Positions 29,224-36,592 of a DNA stretch of 64,000 nucleotides are shown in pieces (within the stretch, counting starts at the first letter, position 1; every line of letters starts with the position of its first letter). The DNA is taken from NCBI GenBank assembly GCA_029213305.1, contig JARGPA010000011.1, positions 1 to 64,000 of the forward strand, written 5' to 3'. The notes under the pieces were generated by a model. The model was given only the letters and a program-made list of their open reading frames with translations. It was not told the origin of the DNA and did no database searches. Origin of the DNA: Phycisphaerales bacterium. Lineage in GTDB: Bacteria > Planctomycetota > Phycisphaerae > Phycisphaerales > UBA1924. The position numbers and the translations under genes are program-made.

Positions 29224-29326
29224 ACTGTTGTATCCGTTCTAATAAATACATGCTGACAAGAATTTGAATTCAGTCCCTTATTTTAGCTCTAATCAACCCT
29301 TCGCAATGAGCCTACAATACCCTCAA

Positions 29327-29459
29327 CTGCTCGGGGCGCAACAAAAGTTGCTGAGAAGGACCCGTAGAACCTGATCCGGCTCGCACCGGCGGAGGGAATG
29401 CAGACAGTCGATCTTTGCAGACTGCTCGCGCATGATCCCCTCGGTGCTTAACACTGAGG
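29327..29459 (+). promoter_or_regulatory. TPP riboswitch with ribosome-site-hiding hairpin upstream of thiC
   Basis: The aptamer is at about 29327-29403: P1 CTGC/GCAG, GCTCGGGGCGC, CTGAGA, GAACCTGATC and GGAGGGAA are the conserved THI-box elements. Downstream, CCTCGGTG (29439-29446) pairs with CACTGAGG (29452-29459) as an 8-bp stem with one G-T pair. Its 3' arm contains GAGG, eight bases before the thiC ATG at 29468. The hairpin has no T run, so translational control is more likely than termination: bound TPP would favour the hidden site. Confidence 0.93.
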
Positions 29460-29467
29460 TATATCGC

Positions 29468-31486
29468 ATGACTGACCAGACAACCTACCCAAAAACAACG
29501 CCGTCCCATTTGGATATCACTTCACCCGCAGGGAAAGCGGTCGCGTTGACTTCAAGATTCAAAACCGCCGACGATATGAAGCTTGCGTTCCGAACAGTGC
29601 AAGCGGGTCCTGCGATCTCAGGGAGTGAATATCCACTCCCTGTACACGGCGCTTACAACCCTGGGTCAGATACAACTGCTCCAACCCCAGGATCGTTCGC
29701 ACACAAACCAGACATTGGAGGCCCGTACACATTCTCATCCCCGGACACTCCTGGGATGCCAAAGCCTTCAAACAAAACTGCTTGGGACTTCCTCCCTTCT
29801 GATTGGACTTGTGAAATCCTCACAAGCGCGTGCGACGCAAACGATGAAACCCCAAGCAATGTCTACACATTCACCGATGCACTTGGAACAACTCGTCGGG
29901 TCGTTACTCCTGAAGGGTTTGCTCCGATCACCCAGATGGAATCTGCACGACTCGGAATCATCACAGCAGAGATGCATCGAGTCGCAGAGCGCGAACCGCA
30001 TCTTACTGCACAACAAGTTCGCGACGAGATCGCGGCTGGCCGTTTGATCATCCCTGCGAACATCCATCACCTTGCGAAGAACCTCGACCCGATGGCCATC
30101 GGCCGAGCATCCAAAACCAAAGTCAACGCAAACATGGGCGCGTCTCCAATCTCCTCAGGGACTGACCAAGAAGTCGAAAAACTCCAATGGGCAGAGCAGT
30201 GGGGCGCCGACACGGTTATGGATCTTTCGACAGGTGGAGATCTCGACGCGTGCCGCGAAGCAATCATCGAAAACTCCACCGTCCCAATCGGGACAGTTCC
30301 AATCTACTCGATGATCATCGGGAAAAAGATCGAAGATCTCGATCACGATCTCATCATGGAAACCCTCGACAAGCAAGCAAAGCAAGGGGTTGACTACTTC
30401 ACGATCCACGCAGGGATCCAACGAGCGCATCTCAAGTTCGTGAAGAACCGAGTCATCGGGATCGTCTCACGCGGCGGCTCACTCCTCGCGAAATGGATGC
30501 TCGTCCACAACCAAGAAAACATCATGTACACGATGTGGGATGAAATCTGCATGCTCATGCGTGAGCACGATGTCGCCTTCTCAATCGGAGACGGCCTACG
30601 TCCGGGTGGACTCGCAGACGCGACCGACTTCGCGCAACTTGCAGAACTCCAAGTCATCGCAGAACTCACAGAACGCGCATGGACCCACGGCCTCCAAGTC
30701 ATGGTTGAAGGTCCAGGACATGTCCCGTTCGATCAGATCGAATACAACGCGAAGCTCCAACGCACACTCTGTCACGGCGCTCCATTCTATGTGCTCGGTC
30801 CACTAGTCACTGATGTCTTCCCAGGGTACGACCATATCACTTCTTGCATCGGCGCAACTTCGATCGCATACCACGGCGCTTCGATGCTTTGCTATGTGAC
30901 TCCGAAGGAGCATCTCGGACTCCCGAAGAAGGGTGATGTGAAAGAAGGATGTATCGCATACAAAATCGCAGCACACGCCGCGGATGTCGCGCTCGGAATT
31001 CCAGGAACTCGCGATTGGGACGACGAGCTTACCAAGGCGCGTGCAGCGCTCAACTGGAACAAGCACTTTGAACTCGCGTTCGACGAAGACACCGCGCGTG
31101 CGTACCACGATGAAGATCTCGATGTCGATACAGACTTCTGTGCAATGTGCGGCCACGACTGGTGCTCAGTTCGCATTAGTAAAGAGATCAAAGAGTTCCA
31201 ATCAGGAAACGCAGAAGGATTCGAACGAGGCGCCGTCGTCAAGTCCGCCGCACTCACTCCTGAGCAACAACAAATTCTCGAACAAAGAGGATACCTCTCC
31301 CCAGAAGAGATCCACAAACTCGCGAGTAAAACCAAGAAGGCTGTTGGTGCAGATGAAGGCGAAAAAGCTTCCTGCCACTCCGATTATGTCGATCCAGACT
31401 CAGCACAACAAGTGCAAGGAGAGGTGTTAGTTCAACTCAATACTGCTCCTGCTCATGGGATCGCGAGTGATGATCGGTTAATATAG
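29468..31486 (+). CDS. thiC: phosphomethylpyrimidine synthase
   Basis: 672 residues from the ATG at 29468; ATG 29432 lies upstream of the hairpin and lacks a site. ThiC converts aminoimidazole ribotide into hydroxymethylpyrimidine phosphate for thiamine synthesis, using SAM and a [4Fe-4S] cluster. Family features are PSNVYTFTDALGTTRRV, MDLSTGGDLDACREAI, ENIMYTMWDEIC, MVEGPGHVP and the C-terminal cluster motif CAMCGHDWC with Cys558, Cys561 and Cys566. Regulation is by the TPP riboswitch. No other thi genes are nearby. Confidence 0.97.
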   Translation: MTDQTTYPKTTPSHLDITSPAGKAVALTSRFKTADDMKLAFRTVQAGPAISGSEYPLPVHGAYNPGSDTTAPTPGSFAHKPDIGGPYTFSSPDTPGMPKPSNKTAWDFLPSDWTCEILTSACDANDETPSNVYTFTDALGTTRRVVTPEGFAPITQMESARLGIITAEMHRVAEREPHLTAQQVRDEIAAGRLIIPANIHHLAKNLDPMAIGRASKTKVNANMGASPISSGTDQEVEKLQWAEQWGADTVMDLSTGGDLDACREAIIENSTVPIGTVPIYSMIIGKKIEDLDHDLIMETLDKQAKQGVDYFTIHAGIQRAHLKFVKNRVIGIVSRGGSLLAKWMLVHNQENIMYTMWDEICMLMREHDVAFSIGDGLRPGGLADATDFAQLAELQVIAELTERAWTHGLQVMVEGPGHVPFDQIEYNAKLQRTLCHGAPFYVLGPLVTDVFPGYDHITSCIGATSIAYHGASMLCYVTPKEHLGLPKKGDVKEGCIAYKIAAHAADVALGIPGTRDWDDELTKARAALNWNKHFELAFDEDTARAYHDEDLDVDTDFCAMCGHDWCSVRISKEIKEFQSGNAEGFERGAVVKSAALTPEQQQILEQRGYLSPEEIHKLASKTKKAVGADEGEKASCHSDYVDPDSAQQVQGEVLVQLNTAPAHGIASDDRLI

Positions 31487-31517
31487 TCACACACATTTGG
31501 ATTTATGGGGAGAGCAC

Positions 31518-32549
31518 ATGTTTCAGCTTAAAGAGGGCAAAACCACACTCACTGACAGTGGGATGATAGCGATCGAGAAACACCTCGATCGTCGACTCAA
31601 GAGATTAGCTGCACCTGTCGTTGGAGTTACGATGCTCGTGTCCGGGGCTGTGGGCTGGGGTGTTAGTTCAGTTTTGAATCATGCTAAAATAACAACTATG
31701 GTGCAAGAAGAAGAAAAAGCAAAACAAAAACTCGCAAACATAGAGAGGGATTATGAAGTTGAACTTTCAAGTGTAGAATCGCGATTTAATAATTTGTTTG
31801 AAAAAATATATTATGATGCATACACCAATAACATTCAGCTACTCGCGCTCCAAGAGTCGGTAGTGCAAAAATCGGCAAAAGTGGAAGTTGCTAGGCTAAC
31901 GGCGCAGAATGCTGTTGATAATCTTACAAAATTATCTGTAAACGCCGATCAGCTAACGAAGGCGATTACAAGTTTAGAGTCTGCAAAAAATGATATTGTT
32001 AATACTGTAACAGATAATCTAAAATCTGATTTTGAAGATGACGAAACTTTAACGAAATTATTCTCGCTCATGCCAATCGGATCTGTTATAGCATGGCCGG
32101 GAAATAGCTCTCCGGCCTACAACTGGAGAGAATGCAAGGCAAACGCAACAGCTCCGTATAATGAAAAATTAGCTAGCGCTCTATCCAATTTGTATGGTAA
32201 TCCGCCAACAATATCGGATAAATCTTCAATCAAACTACCCAATTTTGAAGGCATGTTCTTGCGAGGCGCAGGCGGATTGTCGAAACCAGTTGGAAAACAA
32301 CAAGGCTACACAACAGCTATGCCTTCGGATAAATTTAGATTAAACGATAGTCATGATGCCACAAAGAACGGAACTCATGCTCACGGCGGTGGGGGGGCTG
32401 GTGGTCAAGGACTCATCAGAAATGATGGCGGCGGAACGGAGGGTGATAGCTCGACGAGTGGATCAGCGCATACTCATGGTATTATGGGGGGTGATCCGGA
32501 AACACGCCCCGACAACTATGCAGTCGTTTGGCTCATTCGTGTGGAATAG
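31518..32549 (+). CDS. membrane-anchored phage-tail-collar-domain protein
   Basis: 343 residues from the ATG at 31518 (GGGGAGAG at 31507-31514). A membrane helix is near residues 33-52 (VGVTMLVSGAVGWGVSS), then a long coiled-coil-like region (about 60-175, VQEEEKAKQKLANIERDYEV). The C-terminal part, starting MPIGSVIAWPGNSSPAYNW and including LPNFEGMFLRGAGG, a His/Gly-rich loop and RPDNYAVVWLIRVE, matches tail-collar/tail-fibre tips. No other phage gene is present. Codons are A+T-richer than in neighbouring genes, suggesting transfer. Confidence 0.78.
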   Translation: MFQLKEGKTTLTDSGMIAIEKHLDRRLKRLAAPVVGVTMLVSGAVGWGVSSVLNHAKITTMVQEEEKAKQKLANIERDYEVELSSVESRFNNLFEKIYYDAYTNNIQLLALQESVVQKSAKVEVARLTAQNAVDNLTKLSVNADQLTKAITSLESAKNDIVNTVTDNLKSDFEDDETLTKLFSLMPIGSVIAWPGNSSPAYNWRECKANATAPYNEKLASALSNLYGNPPTISDKSSIKLPNFEGMFLRGAGGLSKPVGKQQGYTTAMPSDKFRLNDSHDATKNGTHAHGGGGAGGQGLIRNDGGGTEGDSSTSGSAHTHGIMGGDPETRPDNYAVVWLIRVE

Positions 32550-32574
32550 TGCGGAGTACTCAAAATTTTAAACA

Positions 32575-32606
32575 GGAAAACCTCATGTTAATATTGAGGA
32601 TTTTCT
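32575..32606 (+). terminator. weak terminator-like hairpin
   Basis: CCTCA/TGAGG (32581-32585 with 32595-32599) flanked by AAAA and ATTTTCTTT follows the tail-collar gene. The stem is short, so this is a weak call. Confidence 0.4.
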
Positions 32607-32662
32607 TTGGCTTCATCTCTTTGTACCGCCGGGTGCCATGTAGACGACGAAGTCTCCCGCAT

Positions 32663-32774
32663 GCTCTTCTCAATCCATAACACAAAAACTTCTCCCCAAC
32701 TGCCACCCCGTGCGCAAAATCCCTGCACTCCACCCTTTCTCCCTTGTGCCGCAAAACAGCCATGCGGTATTTCC
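32663..32774. repeat. 112-bp imperfect direct repeat, copy 1
   Basis: It aligns over its full length with 33357-33468 (about 87 percent identity by eye, with two compensating 1-base indels). The central 25 bases, starting GTGCGCAAAATCCCTGCACT, are identical in both. It lies just upstream of a small gene (32778). It is not a known insertion sequence to me and has no clear terminal inverted repeats. Confidence 0.85.
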
Positions 32775-32777
32775 ATC

Positions 32778-32954
32778 ATGGAACACAAATCGCAAACGAA
32801 AAGCACAATCGAAAACCAGCAACCAACCCTCACCAACGAGCTCCTCGAAGACCTGGCCAATCCTTCGATGTCCGCTTTCGAGATGTGCCAGATCCATCAG
32901 CTCACGCTCATCGAGCTGGCTGATTTGCTGAAATTATCCGCAGGTAGGAAATGA
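32778..32954 (+). CDS. small helical protein of unknown function
   Basis: 58 residues from the ATG at 32778. An earlier in-frame start at 32607 would translate the 112-bp repeat, so the later start is preferred. The C-terminal 35 residues (TNELLEDLANPSMSAFEMC...LTLIELADLLKL) read as two or three short amphipathic helices, compatible with a small helix-turn-helix. There is no strong ribosome-binding site. Evidence that it is expressed is limited. Confidence 0.45.
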   Translation: MEHKSQTKSTIENQQPTLTNELLEDLANPSMSAFEMCQIHQLTLIELADLLKLSAGRK

Positions 32955-32983
32955 CGCGAGAATCCATCCGATTCGGGCTCGCC

Positions 32984-33262
32984 CTATTCTGCTGAGATCA
33001 ACTTCCAATGCCCGTTCGGGCCGTTTTCTATTTCCTCTCTAATATCCTGGAGCACTCGTCGGATCAAGTGTTGGTACTCGGGATCAGGTGCGGGGTTGCT
33101 CGGACACATCACATCGGGCAGGCAGCGTTCATCCCCAAAGTGTGCAAGGGCGCTTGAGTACAGCGTTTGCACATCAATCGGTTCCGTACCCAGTTGCCCG
33201 CGGACCCAATCTTTGAGCTCCCCACGACGATCATCAGAAAGTGGGATTCGGTTACAAGCCAT
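32984..33262 (-). CDS. small hypothetical protein
   Basis: 92 residues. An excellent ribosome-binding site (AAAGGAGACC) precedes the ATG at 33262, which is the main reason to accept it. The sequence is acidic and helical (DDRRGELKDWVRGQLG; LIRRVLQDIREEIENG) with no signal peptide or membrane segment. No family is recognised. It is read against the surrounding genes and is enclosed by the two 112-bp repeats. Confidence 0.65.
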   Translation of the reverse strand: MACNRIPLSDDRRGELKDWVRGQLGTEPIDVQTLYSSALAHFGDERCLPDVMCPSNPAPDPEYQHLIRRVLQDIREEIENGPNGHWKLISAE

Positions 33263-33566
33263 AATGGTCTCCTTTTGTTTGTATTGATTTAATCAGATAT
33301 CAGCATACCATAGATCTCCTTCACCTCTTACACAAAGAGGGAATGGAGATCGCGAAGCTCTTCTCAATCCAAAATAGAAAATCTTCCCCCCAAGTACCGC
33401 CCCCGTGCGCAAAATCCCTGCACTCCACCTTTCCCCCTTGTGCCGCAAAACAGTCATGCGATAATTCCCGCATCCAACACCCTATCAGAGACGAATCCAC
33501 TCGTCCGCAACCATGTATTGTGGGATCTGGTACCATCGAAGGTATATCAAAGTGGAGGGCTCGCTG
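33263..33566. other. 304-bp intergenic region holding the second 112-bp repeat
   Basis: It contains the ribosome-binding site of the gene at 32984-33262 at its left end, copy 2 of the direct repeat in the middle, and GTGGAGGG just before the EF-hand gene. I see no credible protein-coding frame. Confidence 0.6.
33357..33468. repeat. 112-bp imperfect direct repeat, copy 2
   Basis: Direct copy of 32663-32774 with the same length, differing at about a dozen positions plus two 1-base indels. Read on the minus strand both copies contain a fragment coding VECRDFAHG or its frameshifted form, but the frame is not kept between copies, so this is not a protein gene. Confidence 0.85.
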
Positions 33567-34517
33567 ATGAACACGAAATCGATCGCTGCTGTCTTAACGC
33601 TCGTCGCAGGGTCGGGTGTGATCGCCGCCGCGTGGTTGATGACTCGCGATGAAGTTGTCGAGACTCAACCGATACCTGAGCCTCAACCAATCGCTCGGCC
33701 TCAATCATCCGAACTATTCAGCGCCTCGTTTACTCCAAGTCCTGCGAGTGTGTTCATCAAGAGCGCCGCCGGACAACCGATCCCCGCGCAATCACGCACT
33801 CAGATTGAAGGGATGGTCGGGATGATGGCCTCGCTCATCGGACGCATGGATGAGTTCGACGCGAACGGTGATGGGATTCTCTCCGATCTCGAAAAGATCG
33901 CGATGGGTTTCAAGCTCCGAAAAGAGTTTCTCGCAGATCACGATCTTGACGGCGACGGTGACATGTCTCGCGAGGAATGGGGTGCCTTCCAACGATCTAT
34001 GTTCGAGCAAACCCCCCAAGGTCAACTGTTGATGAATCAGTTTGACGCCGACGGTGATGGGGTGCTCAACGATGAAGAGCAAGCAGCGCTCGATGCGCAT
34101 CTTGATCAACGGGAACAAGAACGCAAAGCTGAAGAACGCGCACGCATGGATACCGACAACGACGGAGAAGTTTCAGAAGACGAACGCGTCGCAGCGCGTC
34201 AACAAGAACGAGAGTTCTGGCAAAACCAGATGCGCACCGCAGAAAGCAATTTCGACTACGACGATGACGGCGAACTCAACATCGAAGAAACCGGAGACGC
34301 ATGGGATGCATGGGTTGAGTATCAAACCGTCGATAGTTTCATTACTCGATATGATTCGAACGGCGATCATCGCATGGGCCCAAGTGATTACGAACGGTTC
34401 TTGTATCAGTACGATCGAAAGAACGATCATGCAGATGTGAACAACGATGGAAAAGTCGATGTTGCAGATATCTATAGTTTTCGTGATCTTGTCTTGCGAT
34501 CAAGATACATCAACTAA
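33567..34517 (+). CDS. EF-hand calcium-binding exported or membrane-anchored protein
   Basis: 316 residues from the ATG at 33567, preceded by GGAGGG. An N-terminal hydrophobic segment (IAAVLTLVAGSGVIAAAWLM) is a signal or anchor. Six to seven D-x-[DN]-x-D-G calcium loops follow, for example DANGDGILSDLEK, DLDGDGDMSREEW, DADGDGVLNDEEQ, DTDNDGEVSEDER and DYDDDGELNIEE, with a last NNDGKVDVADIY resembling a dockerin or EF loop. It presumably binds calcium outside the cytoplasm; a partner is unknown. Confidence 0.85.
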   Translation: MNTKSIAAVLTLVAGSGVIAAAWLMTRDEVVETQPIPEPQPIARPQSSELFSASFTPSPASVFIKSAAGQPIPAQSRTQIEGMVGMMASLIGRMDEFDANGDGILSDLEKIAMGFKLRKEFLADHDLDGDGDMSREEWGAFQRSMFEQTPQGQLLMNQFDADGDGVLNDEEQAALDAHLDQREQERKAEERARMDTDNDGEVSEDERVAARQQEREFWQNQMRTAESNFDYDDDGELNIEETGDAWDAWVEYQTVDSFITRYDSNGDHRMGPSDYERFLYQYDRKNDHADVNNDGKVDVADIYSFRDLVLRSRYIN

Positions 34518-34569
34518 TCTCGTTCCTGCATGCTCAATGTTCAACACAGGTACAAAGATCCAAAGAATC

Positions 34570-34578
34570 TGGTATTAT
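34570..34578 (+). promoter_or_regulatory. possible extended -10 promoter element
   Basis: TGGTATTAT (TG-N-TATTAT form) lies 61 bases before the ATG at 34639. No good -35 box is at the right distance, so this is tentative. Confidence 0.3.
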
Positions 34579-34638
34579 CTTTCATAACACGCGTCGTGCT
34601 GAAATTCGTGACGCTCATTCTCGAATGAAGGAATACTT

Positions 34639-35037
34639 ATGATTATCACTCTCGCACAGAATAGTCCTGGAAACTCAATCGCAATCGCGATCGGTGGTTT
34701 GGTCTTCGGATTGATCTATCTTTCGATAATTGTACTTTTGATCGTGGGTGCTTGGAAGATGTTTGTCAAAGCAGGACAACCAGGTTGGGGTGTTCTTATT
34801 CCATTCTTTAATCTCTATCTTGTTCTCAAAATCTGCGGCCGACCTGGATGGTGGTTGATTCTCTTCTTTGTTCCGATTCTCAATATTGCTTTCTCGTGTA
34901 TCGTCTCGTTGGATCTGGCGAAGTCATTTGGAAAAGGAATTGGTTTTGGGATCGGACTCTTCTTTCTCAACTTCATCTTCATACCAATCCTTGGATTCGG
35001 GAGTGCGGAGTATGAAGGCCCTGCAGGTGCTTATTAA
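34639..35037 (+). CDS. DUF5684-type small membrane protein
   Basis: 132 residues with three or four membrane helices. The block WKMFVKAGQPGWGVLIPFF and LKICGRPGWWLILFFVPI is characteristic of DUF5684 proteins, small multi-span membrane proteins of unknown function. It ends two bases before the next gene, indicating an operon. Confidence 0.85.
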   Translation: MIITLAQNSPGNSIAIAIGGLVFGLIYLSIIVLLIVGAWKMFVKAGQPGWGVLIPFFNLYLVLKICGRPGWWLILFFVPILNIAFSCIVSLDLAKSFGKGIGFGIGLFFLNFIFIPILGFGSAEYEGPAGAY

Positions 35038-35722: not shown

Positions 35723-36460
35723 TTACGGGCATGAAACAGTCAGCGCATTCAAAAACGCACTCACATCGAAGAAGTTGAACTGTCCATCATCAGTAAAGTC
35801 TGCGCGATCATCTTCTTCACTAAAGAAACTTAAGAAGGCACTGACATCGAAAAAGTTCTGTTGGCCGTCTTCGTTGATATCCGCAGGGCATGCAACAAAG
35901 TCTGCGCCAAAGGTCATGTTGTTGATAGACAGAAAATCAAATGATGAGTGCGTAATCACGACGCGTGAGATCCCCGTTGTTGGAGCTTGGTATCCTGTGA
36001 AGTATCCAGTGTTCGATGGTTTTTCATACGACTCGATTAGTCCATCAGCTCGATCGTACACCTCGATTGTGTACGAGTTATCAGTATTAAACCCAATGAG
36101 ATCAAGTCCAAATGCGACTTGACCTACATCGAATCGAATCTCTATGCCGTCATACGATCGAAGATACACATCATCTTCTCCCCCGATGAACCCTGCATGT
36201 ACTGCTAATCGAGTAGCGGATTCATATGTCACGCCATCCTCGATCACCCAGTTCCATGGTAACTGATCAACTGTCACAGAGTTGAGCGGGTTCGGGACAT
36301 CTAATGTTGATCCGCCGTGTAAACTGATGCCCTCAAAGTCCTCGATAATAATCTGATCGTCGAGTATCAGTTCAAGTTCGGTAAAGCTCGTGATCGGTTG
36401 TGCTCCAACCGATCCTCCCAACACCATCATCGCGCCAATAACTATGTTTGCAAAGTACAT
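35723..36460 (-). CDS. secreted protein with paired dockerin-like C-terminal repeats
   Basis: 245 residues from the ATG at 36460, chosen because GGAGGA lies 8 bases upstream and because it gives a clean signal peptide (MYFANIVIGAMMVLGGSVGA). A beta-sandwich-like domain is followed by two repeats, DINEDGQQNFFDVSAFL and DFTDDGQFNFFDVSAFL, ending in SCP. The ending matches the protein at 24988-25755, although the main domains differ in sequence. Confidence 0.8.
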   Translation of the reverse strand: MYFANIVIGAMMVLGGSVGAQPITSFTELELILDDQIIIEDFEGISLHGGSTLDVPNPLNSVTVDQLPWNWVIEDGVTYESATRLAVHAGFIGGEDDVYLRSYDGIEIRFDVGQVAFGLDLIGFNTDNSYTIEVYDRADGLIESYEKPSNTGYFTGYQAPTTGISRVVITHSSFDFLSINNMTFGADFVACPADINEDGQQNFFDVSAFLSFFSEEDDRADFTDDGQFNFFDVSAFLNALTVSCP

Positions 36461-36592
36461 TCGGGATCCTCCTCTAGATAGTTGATCATGAAACACTTTA
36501 ACTCAGTATCGATATTTCTAAACGAGAACTTAGTTGATGAGATGCAAAAACACCATTTGGCCAATCATGTCACCAGCTGGCAAACTCTGGCC

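Follow-up and report, generated by a model that had tools for sequence, protein, structure and literature searches.

The two direct repeats at positions 32663 to 32786 and 33357 to 33480 of the 64,000-nucleotide window are probably diverged sister copies of a 5' module, comprising the promoter region and start codon, of a previously undescribed gene family with multiple copies. The window corresponds to contig C8 in a 2.93-Mb genome assembled in 38 contigs; features named below lie on the forward strand unless otherwise indicated. The copies are 86% identical across 124 bases, with 107 identical bases of 123 in their alignment, and both contain the 25-mer GTGCGCAAAATCCCTGCACTCCACC (32710 to 32734 and 33405 to 33429), for which the chance expectation is 0.00, up to 3 mismatches allowed. 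The repeat pair is real and far above chance. The initial annotation had described two similar direct copies 694 bases apart, with a 25-base identical core and two compensating indels, and the coordinates bear this out: the offset between the copies changes from 694 to 695 and back to 694, as expected of two 1-base indels. Its extent of 112 bp holds as far as it goes, but the similarity continues to 33480, 12 bases past the earlier end. Tandem duplication of the entire 694-base unit was considered and dropped, because the sequence 3' of copy 2, an EF-hand protein gene, is unrelated to that 3' of copy 1.

The affiliation of the repeats with a gene family comes from their relatives. When 60 related genomes were searched with the interval, 20 of 61 genomes proved to contain matches. 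Almost all of these genomes belong to the same genus, and the matches cover the repeat, the 58-codon open reading frame (ORF) that follows copy 1, or both. When copies from relatives are oriented, a start codon marks the end of the repeat, and the gene comes next. A profile of the encoded core finds 1 to 11 members per genome in 20 of the 21 genomes of the genus; no match outside it is as strong, other genera of the same family have up to 10, and weaker ones also occur in other families of the order. Further copies, which the initial annotation had suggested looking for, thus exist both in nearly all same-genus genomes and in the genome under study, where they lie on contig C30 and, in divergent form, on C21 and C1. 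The earlier idea of a dispersed repeat family is correct insofar as the repeat supplies the promoter and 5' end of genes that form a dispersed family with multiple copies; these two copies, on the other hand, arose by local duplication in this lineage. In 21 of 21 core pairs dN is lower than dS, so the family gene is taken to be real, and the core reading frames are uninterrupted across family members. The named loci that carry the family belong to uncultured Phycisphaerales. No Pfam, NCBIfam or PHROGs entry matches the family protein above cut-off, and a literature search found no paper on this gene family. The family is undescribed and lineage-restricted, occurring mainly in one family of Phycisphaerales-type bacteria.

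The module comprises, in order, a GTGCGC box, a TTG(T/A)GC -35 box, a 16-base spacer, an A-rich -10 box (for example, GATAAT) and a start codon 6 to 7 bases later. The distance from GTGCGC to TTG is 34 bases in 28 of the 32 measured modules and 33 to 35 in all 32. In a strict scan, a promoter plus in-frame ATG is present in 38 of 78 family copies, versus 0.26% of shuffled upstream regions, and the exact geometry is found in 34 of 78, versus 0%. Many of the other 40 copies, but not all, are accounted for by repeat insertions, longer 5' UTRs and other forms of the -10 box. Solo modules, from which the gene is absent, occur in five relatives (G009, G011, G013, G015 and G018). The family therefore resembles paralogous families with co-duplicated promoters and solo promoter relics, in that dispersed copies share a promoter and an N-terminal core, and some promoter copies have no gene. 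In contrast to general paralogous families, however, it has an unusually rigid promoter-to-start geometry, a predicted leaderless start, and a distribution mainly within one bacterial family.

The leaderless prediction follows from the spacing. Because the -10 box ends 6 to 7 bases before the ATG, transcription is predicted to start at, or one or two bases from, the start codon, if sigma-70-type promoter geometry is assumed. A comparative study reported a nucleotide bias near Planctomycetes start codons that hints at leaderless mRNA, S1-dependent initiation or both (PMC5397173). We also considered whether the module is a general housekeeping promoter. An exact-geometry scan of this genome yielded family modules and otherwise only chance-level matches, a control pattern giving a similar number of unrelated matches in the same genome, and the module is therefore tied to the family.

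Modules were recognized by a GTGCGC box 33 to 35 bases before TTG, a 16- to 17-base spacer, a -10 box, and a start codon 6 to 9 bases farther on. Copy 1, which has homologous modules in same-genus genomes, conforms in everything except the -10 box. Its GTGCGC box lies with the shared 25-mer (32710 to 32734) and its -35 box, recognized from sequence and module geometry, is TTGTGC (32744 to 32749), but the -10 position reads GGTATT (32766 to 32771), lacking the position-2 A that is retained in every gene-bearing module. This change would be expected to weaken transcription from copy 1. The 58-codon ORF behind it (32778 to 32954), whose start was read from the sequence, covers the first 38 positions of the family profile (E 4e-14) and is cut after LTLIELADLL. 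Its 29 N-terminal core codons, compared with the ortholog in the relative G005, have a dN of 0.03 and a dS of 0.51. Judged by its sequence, then, this ORF is an orthologous family member that has been truncated at its C terminus, and of the two small genes that were initially called orphans, only the 92-residue one between the repeats retains that status.

Copy 2 is a solo module with no family gene behind it. The GTGCGC box with the shared 25-mer (33405 to 33429), the -35 box TTGTGC (33438 to 33443; again from sequence and module geometry), the 16-base spacer and an intact -10 box, GATAAT (33460 to 33465), are all in place, but the start codon has changed from ATG to ATC (33472 to 33474). An inverted repeat, ATGCG-8-CGCAT, spans the -10 box (33456 to 33473), an arrangement that was tested for covariation across the family, as described below. 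The predicted transcription start at about 33472 is 95 bases upstream of the ATG of the EF-hand gene at 33567, so copy 2 might now provide that gene with a promoter and a 5' UTR of roughly 95 bases. The EF-hand gene has its own Shine-Dalgarno sequence, GGAGGG (33554 to 33559), and the 60 bases that follow copy 2 may have diverged without constraint. Copy 2 could also be a decaying remnant without a role.

Tree building with the modules pairs the two window copies as sisters (support 98/90), with the G005 ortholog next (98/89). This topology indicates duplication within this lineage and, as far as the sequences tell, the two copies then suffered complementary damage. Of the two modules at the locus, copy 1 kept a truncated gene but has a damaged -10 box, and copy 2 lost the start codon and the gene but keeps its promoter intact in front of the EF-hand gene. 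A competing view, to which we give somewhat less than an even chance, is that the local duplication was neutral and left two decaying relics, with the 58-codon ORF a pseudogene and copy 2 driving nothing. The truncation of the gene and the damage to the copy 1 -10 box and to the copy 2 start codon are all consistent with this view, and the solo modules of relatives likewise resemble leftovers of lost genes. However, the low dN relative to dS over the 29 retained core codons argues against it, as does the survival in copy 2 of box, -35, -10 and inverted repeat despite loss of the gene.

The locus is otherwise conserved. In orthologous loci, the order is thiC, module with gene, and EF-hand gene. 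Here, thiC (29432 to 31486) is the upstream syntenic anchor, and it precedes the module also in G002, G006, G011 and G016; the EF-hand protein gene (33567 to 34517), assigned from its Pfam EF-hand match and from synteny, has orthologs after the family gene in G005, G010 and G011. A TPP riboswitch (70 bits; 29322 to 29415) lies directly 5' of thiC and is the sole match in an Rfam search of the window, which returned no RNA family over the repeats. Between thiC and the repeats is a 350-residue ORF (31497 to 32549) with a weak match to a phage tail collar domain (E 9e-4, below cut-off). Farther downstream, a gene on the reverse strand (35723 to 36496) encodes a secreted protein whose dockerin-like C-terminal segment, NGDGxxNFFDVSAFL, recurs in many genes downstream of family loci.

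Relatives at the syntenic locus have a single module with the full gene directly after it. The initial annotation had proposed checking whether the interval between the copies is sometimes missing, and these relatives indeed have no 92-residue interval. The corresponding 92-codon ORF (32984 to 33262, reverse strand) has the Shine-Dalgarno-like sequence AAAGGAGACC upstream of its ATG. No convincing relative was found in its own genome's contigs, 150 relatives, Pfam, NCBIfam, PADLOC or phages, and its best match (E 0.005 at 29% identity) was treated as chance. As to a toxin-antitoxin or defence role, neither the 92-residue protein nor the family core protein has a match above cut-off in Pfam, NCBIfam or PADLOC. 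Adjoining the 5' edge of copy 1 is a short palindromic dispersed repeat, GCCGGGTGCCATGTAGACGACGAAGTCTCCCGCATG (32628 to 32663), with arms around GACGAAGTCT. A pattern search found one copy of it here, up to 9 in a same-genus genome, and none in 8 genomes from other families of the order.

It is quite improbable, but worth weighing, that the 92-residue gene is an inserted cassette bounded by the two modules, which would serve as recombination or insertion sites of a mobile element. The absence of the interval from relatives and the palindromic repeat beside copy 1 are in keeping with this idea. At the same spot, between module and EF-hand ortholog, G002 carries the genes of a mobile mystery protein A/B pair (XRE and Fic; TIGR02612/TIGR02613; L180, contig C150 of G002, about 88 to 91 kb), whose protein B passes its cut-off with 156 bits. 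An additional solo module is present at this locus in G011, beyond a minus-strand gene. The spot therefore takes insertions, but there is no sign that modules cause them. The A/B module is absent from the window, where the insert is the unrelated 92-residue ORF, and the G002 insert is accompanied by one module only. Moreover, modules elsewhere are promoters of family genes and not cassette ends. No transposase or recombinase is among the named ORFs near the repeats, no inverted repeats of 20 or more were found in 31500 to 34800, and plasmid and phage searches gave no match, so a plasmid or phage origin was dropped. Of the earlier suggestions, recombination sites find no support, and mobile-element remnants fit the missing interval but gain nothing from the transposase, plasmid and phage searches.

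More tentatively, both the GTGCGC box and the inverted repeat that spans the -10 box are candidate sites of self-regulation by the family. The inverted repeat straddles the -10 box family-wide, with loops of 8 to 20 bases, and its arms vary among copies (CATGCG, GATCTGCA, GTCTGC, GTCATCAT, CATCATCA, TTCATC, CGTCTTCA, GCGATCA, ACCAT and GCGTC). The arms pair with their own partners at 174 matched bases, versus 140 +/- 5.3 when arms are swapped among 38 non-redundant copies, and 0 of 20,000 permutations reach 174, in a test that included 8 manually placed rows and related, hence non-independent, copies. Perhaps the repeat acts as an RNA or single-stranded-DNA hairpin, in translation control or as an open-promoter structure, and not as a protein operator, a possibility that we put forward tentatively. 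Self-pairing by at least 10 different arm sequences is suggestive of such a hairpin, and the variable loops suit it more readily than they do a fixed-spacing dimer site. However, the 5' arm would be outside the RNA if transcription begins at the start codon, the -10 box falls within the loop, the covariation rests on copies that are related and not fully independent, and template-switch repair could likewise perfect the repeats.

The family protein consists of a five-helix core of about 100 residues and a disordered tail. In an AlphaFold2 model from 18 sequences, the five helices have a pLDDT near 90 in residues 21 to 90, and the tail is disordered. Searches of PDB folds gave no confident match, and Foldseek had no match below E 2. 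Helices 1 to 3 overlay weakly on the helix-turn-helix regions of TetR-type, SlmA and phBC6A51 proteins (Z 2.2 to 2.5 over 39 to 48 residues, with a partial model). In contrast to this overlap with phBC6A51-like and TetR-type proteins (PDB 2ao9, 3mvp and 5hbu), no sequence match of the family reaches the cut-off in Pfam, NCBIfam or PHROGs, and its long fourth helix and disordered tail are left unmatched. The model is thus weakly suggestive of a DNA-binding, helix-turn-helix-like core. Because of these fold overlaps, the multi-copy spread and the palindromic promoter, our functional guess, which is more likely wrong than right, is an autoregulated DNA-binding protein. Similarity to TAL effectors was rejected: the PDB matches are sums of many sub-threshold repeats, not one stretch of which is significant alone, and the core has a single segment of the kind that TAL effectors carry as tandem 33- to 35-residue repeats.

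Past the core, the reading frame stays open for at least 68 codons in all 49 non-redundant genus copies. Its median open length is 204 codons (other frames, 74 and 48), and in 37 of the 49 copies it exceeds both other frames (p 2e-9). Among the family loci L026 to L173, open frames past the core often cross neighboring genes read in another frame or antisense and reach, for example, 629 codons (L077) and 652 codons (L103). The tails enter downstream genes in frame (those for the EF-hand protein in G005 and G010 and for secreted proteins at other loci), or they cross them out of frame or antisense, whereas in more distant relatives they comprise about 27 to 85 residues and end in a normal stop. 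Selection for a long disordered tail accounts for the minimum open length but not for the excess.

GC-rich palindromic repeats (CTCCCCCGGG..CCGGGGGAGGTG..GCGAAGCGGACGGAGGGGGTCTTC) also occur as in-frame insertions flanking the core, in the N-terminal region at loci such as L033, L046, L047, L054 and L060 and after the core at loci such as L028, L040 and L055. Rickettsia palindromic elements and REP/MITE repeats are the comparison systems for such sequences. As with Rickettsia palindromic elements, short palindromes lie inside family frames without breaking them, and one also adjoins copy 1. In contrast to these elements and to REP/MITE repeats, the 112- to 124-base repeat itself lacks palindromic symmetry over its full length and belongs with a single gene family.

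A broader and rather unlikely scenario is that the family is self-dispersing, leaderless and autoregulated, that the distinct covarying palindrome of each paralog, across its -10 box and start site, would allow separate regulation, and that the frame is selected to stay open, giving a long tail or a fusion to the next gene. Whether or not this is so, an anonymous repeat pair becomes a testable, undescribed, multi-copy and lineage-specific protein family. Its promoter-to-start architecture, predicted to be leaderless, is among the more rigid bacterial ones seen without experiments, and the covarying palindrome across the -10 box and the missing stops behind the core are two features that have no ready explanation. 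The arrangement at this locus also offers a reason why a gene for a calcium-binding EF-hand protein may have gained a promoter from a dead neighbor.
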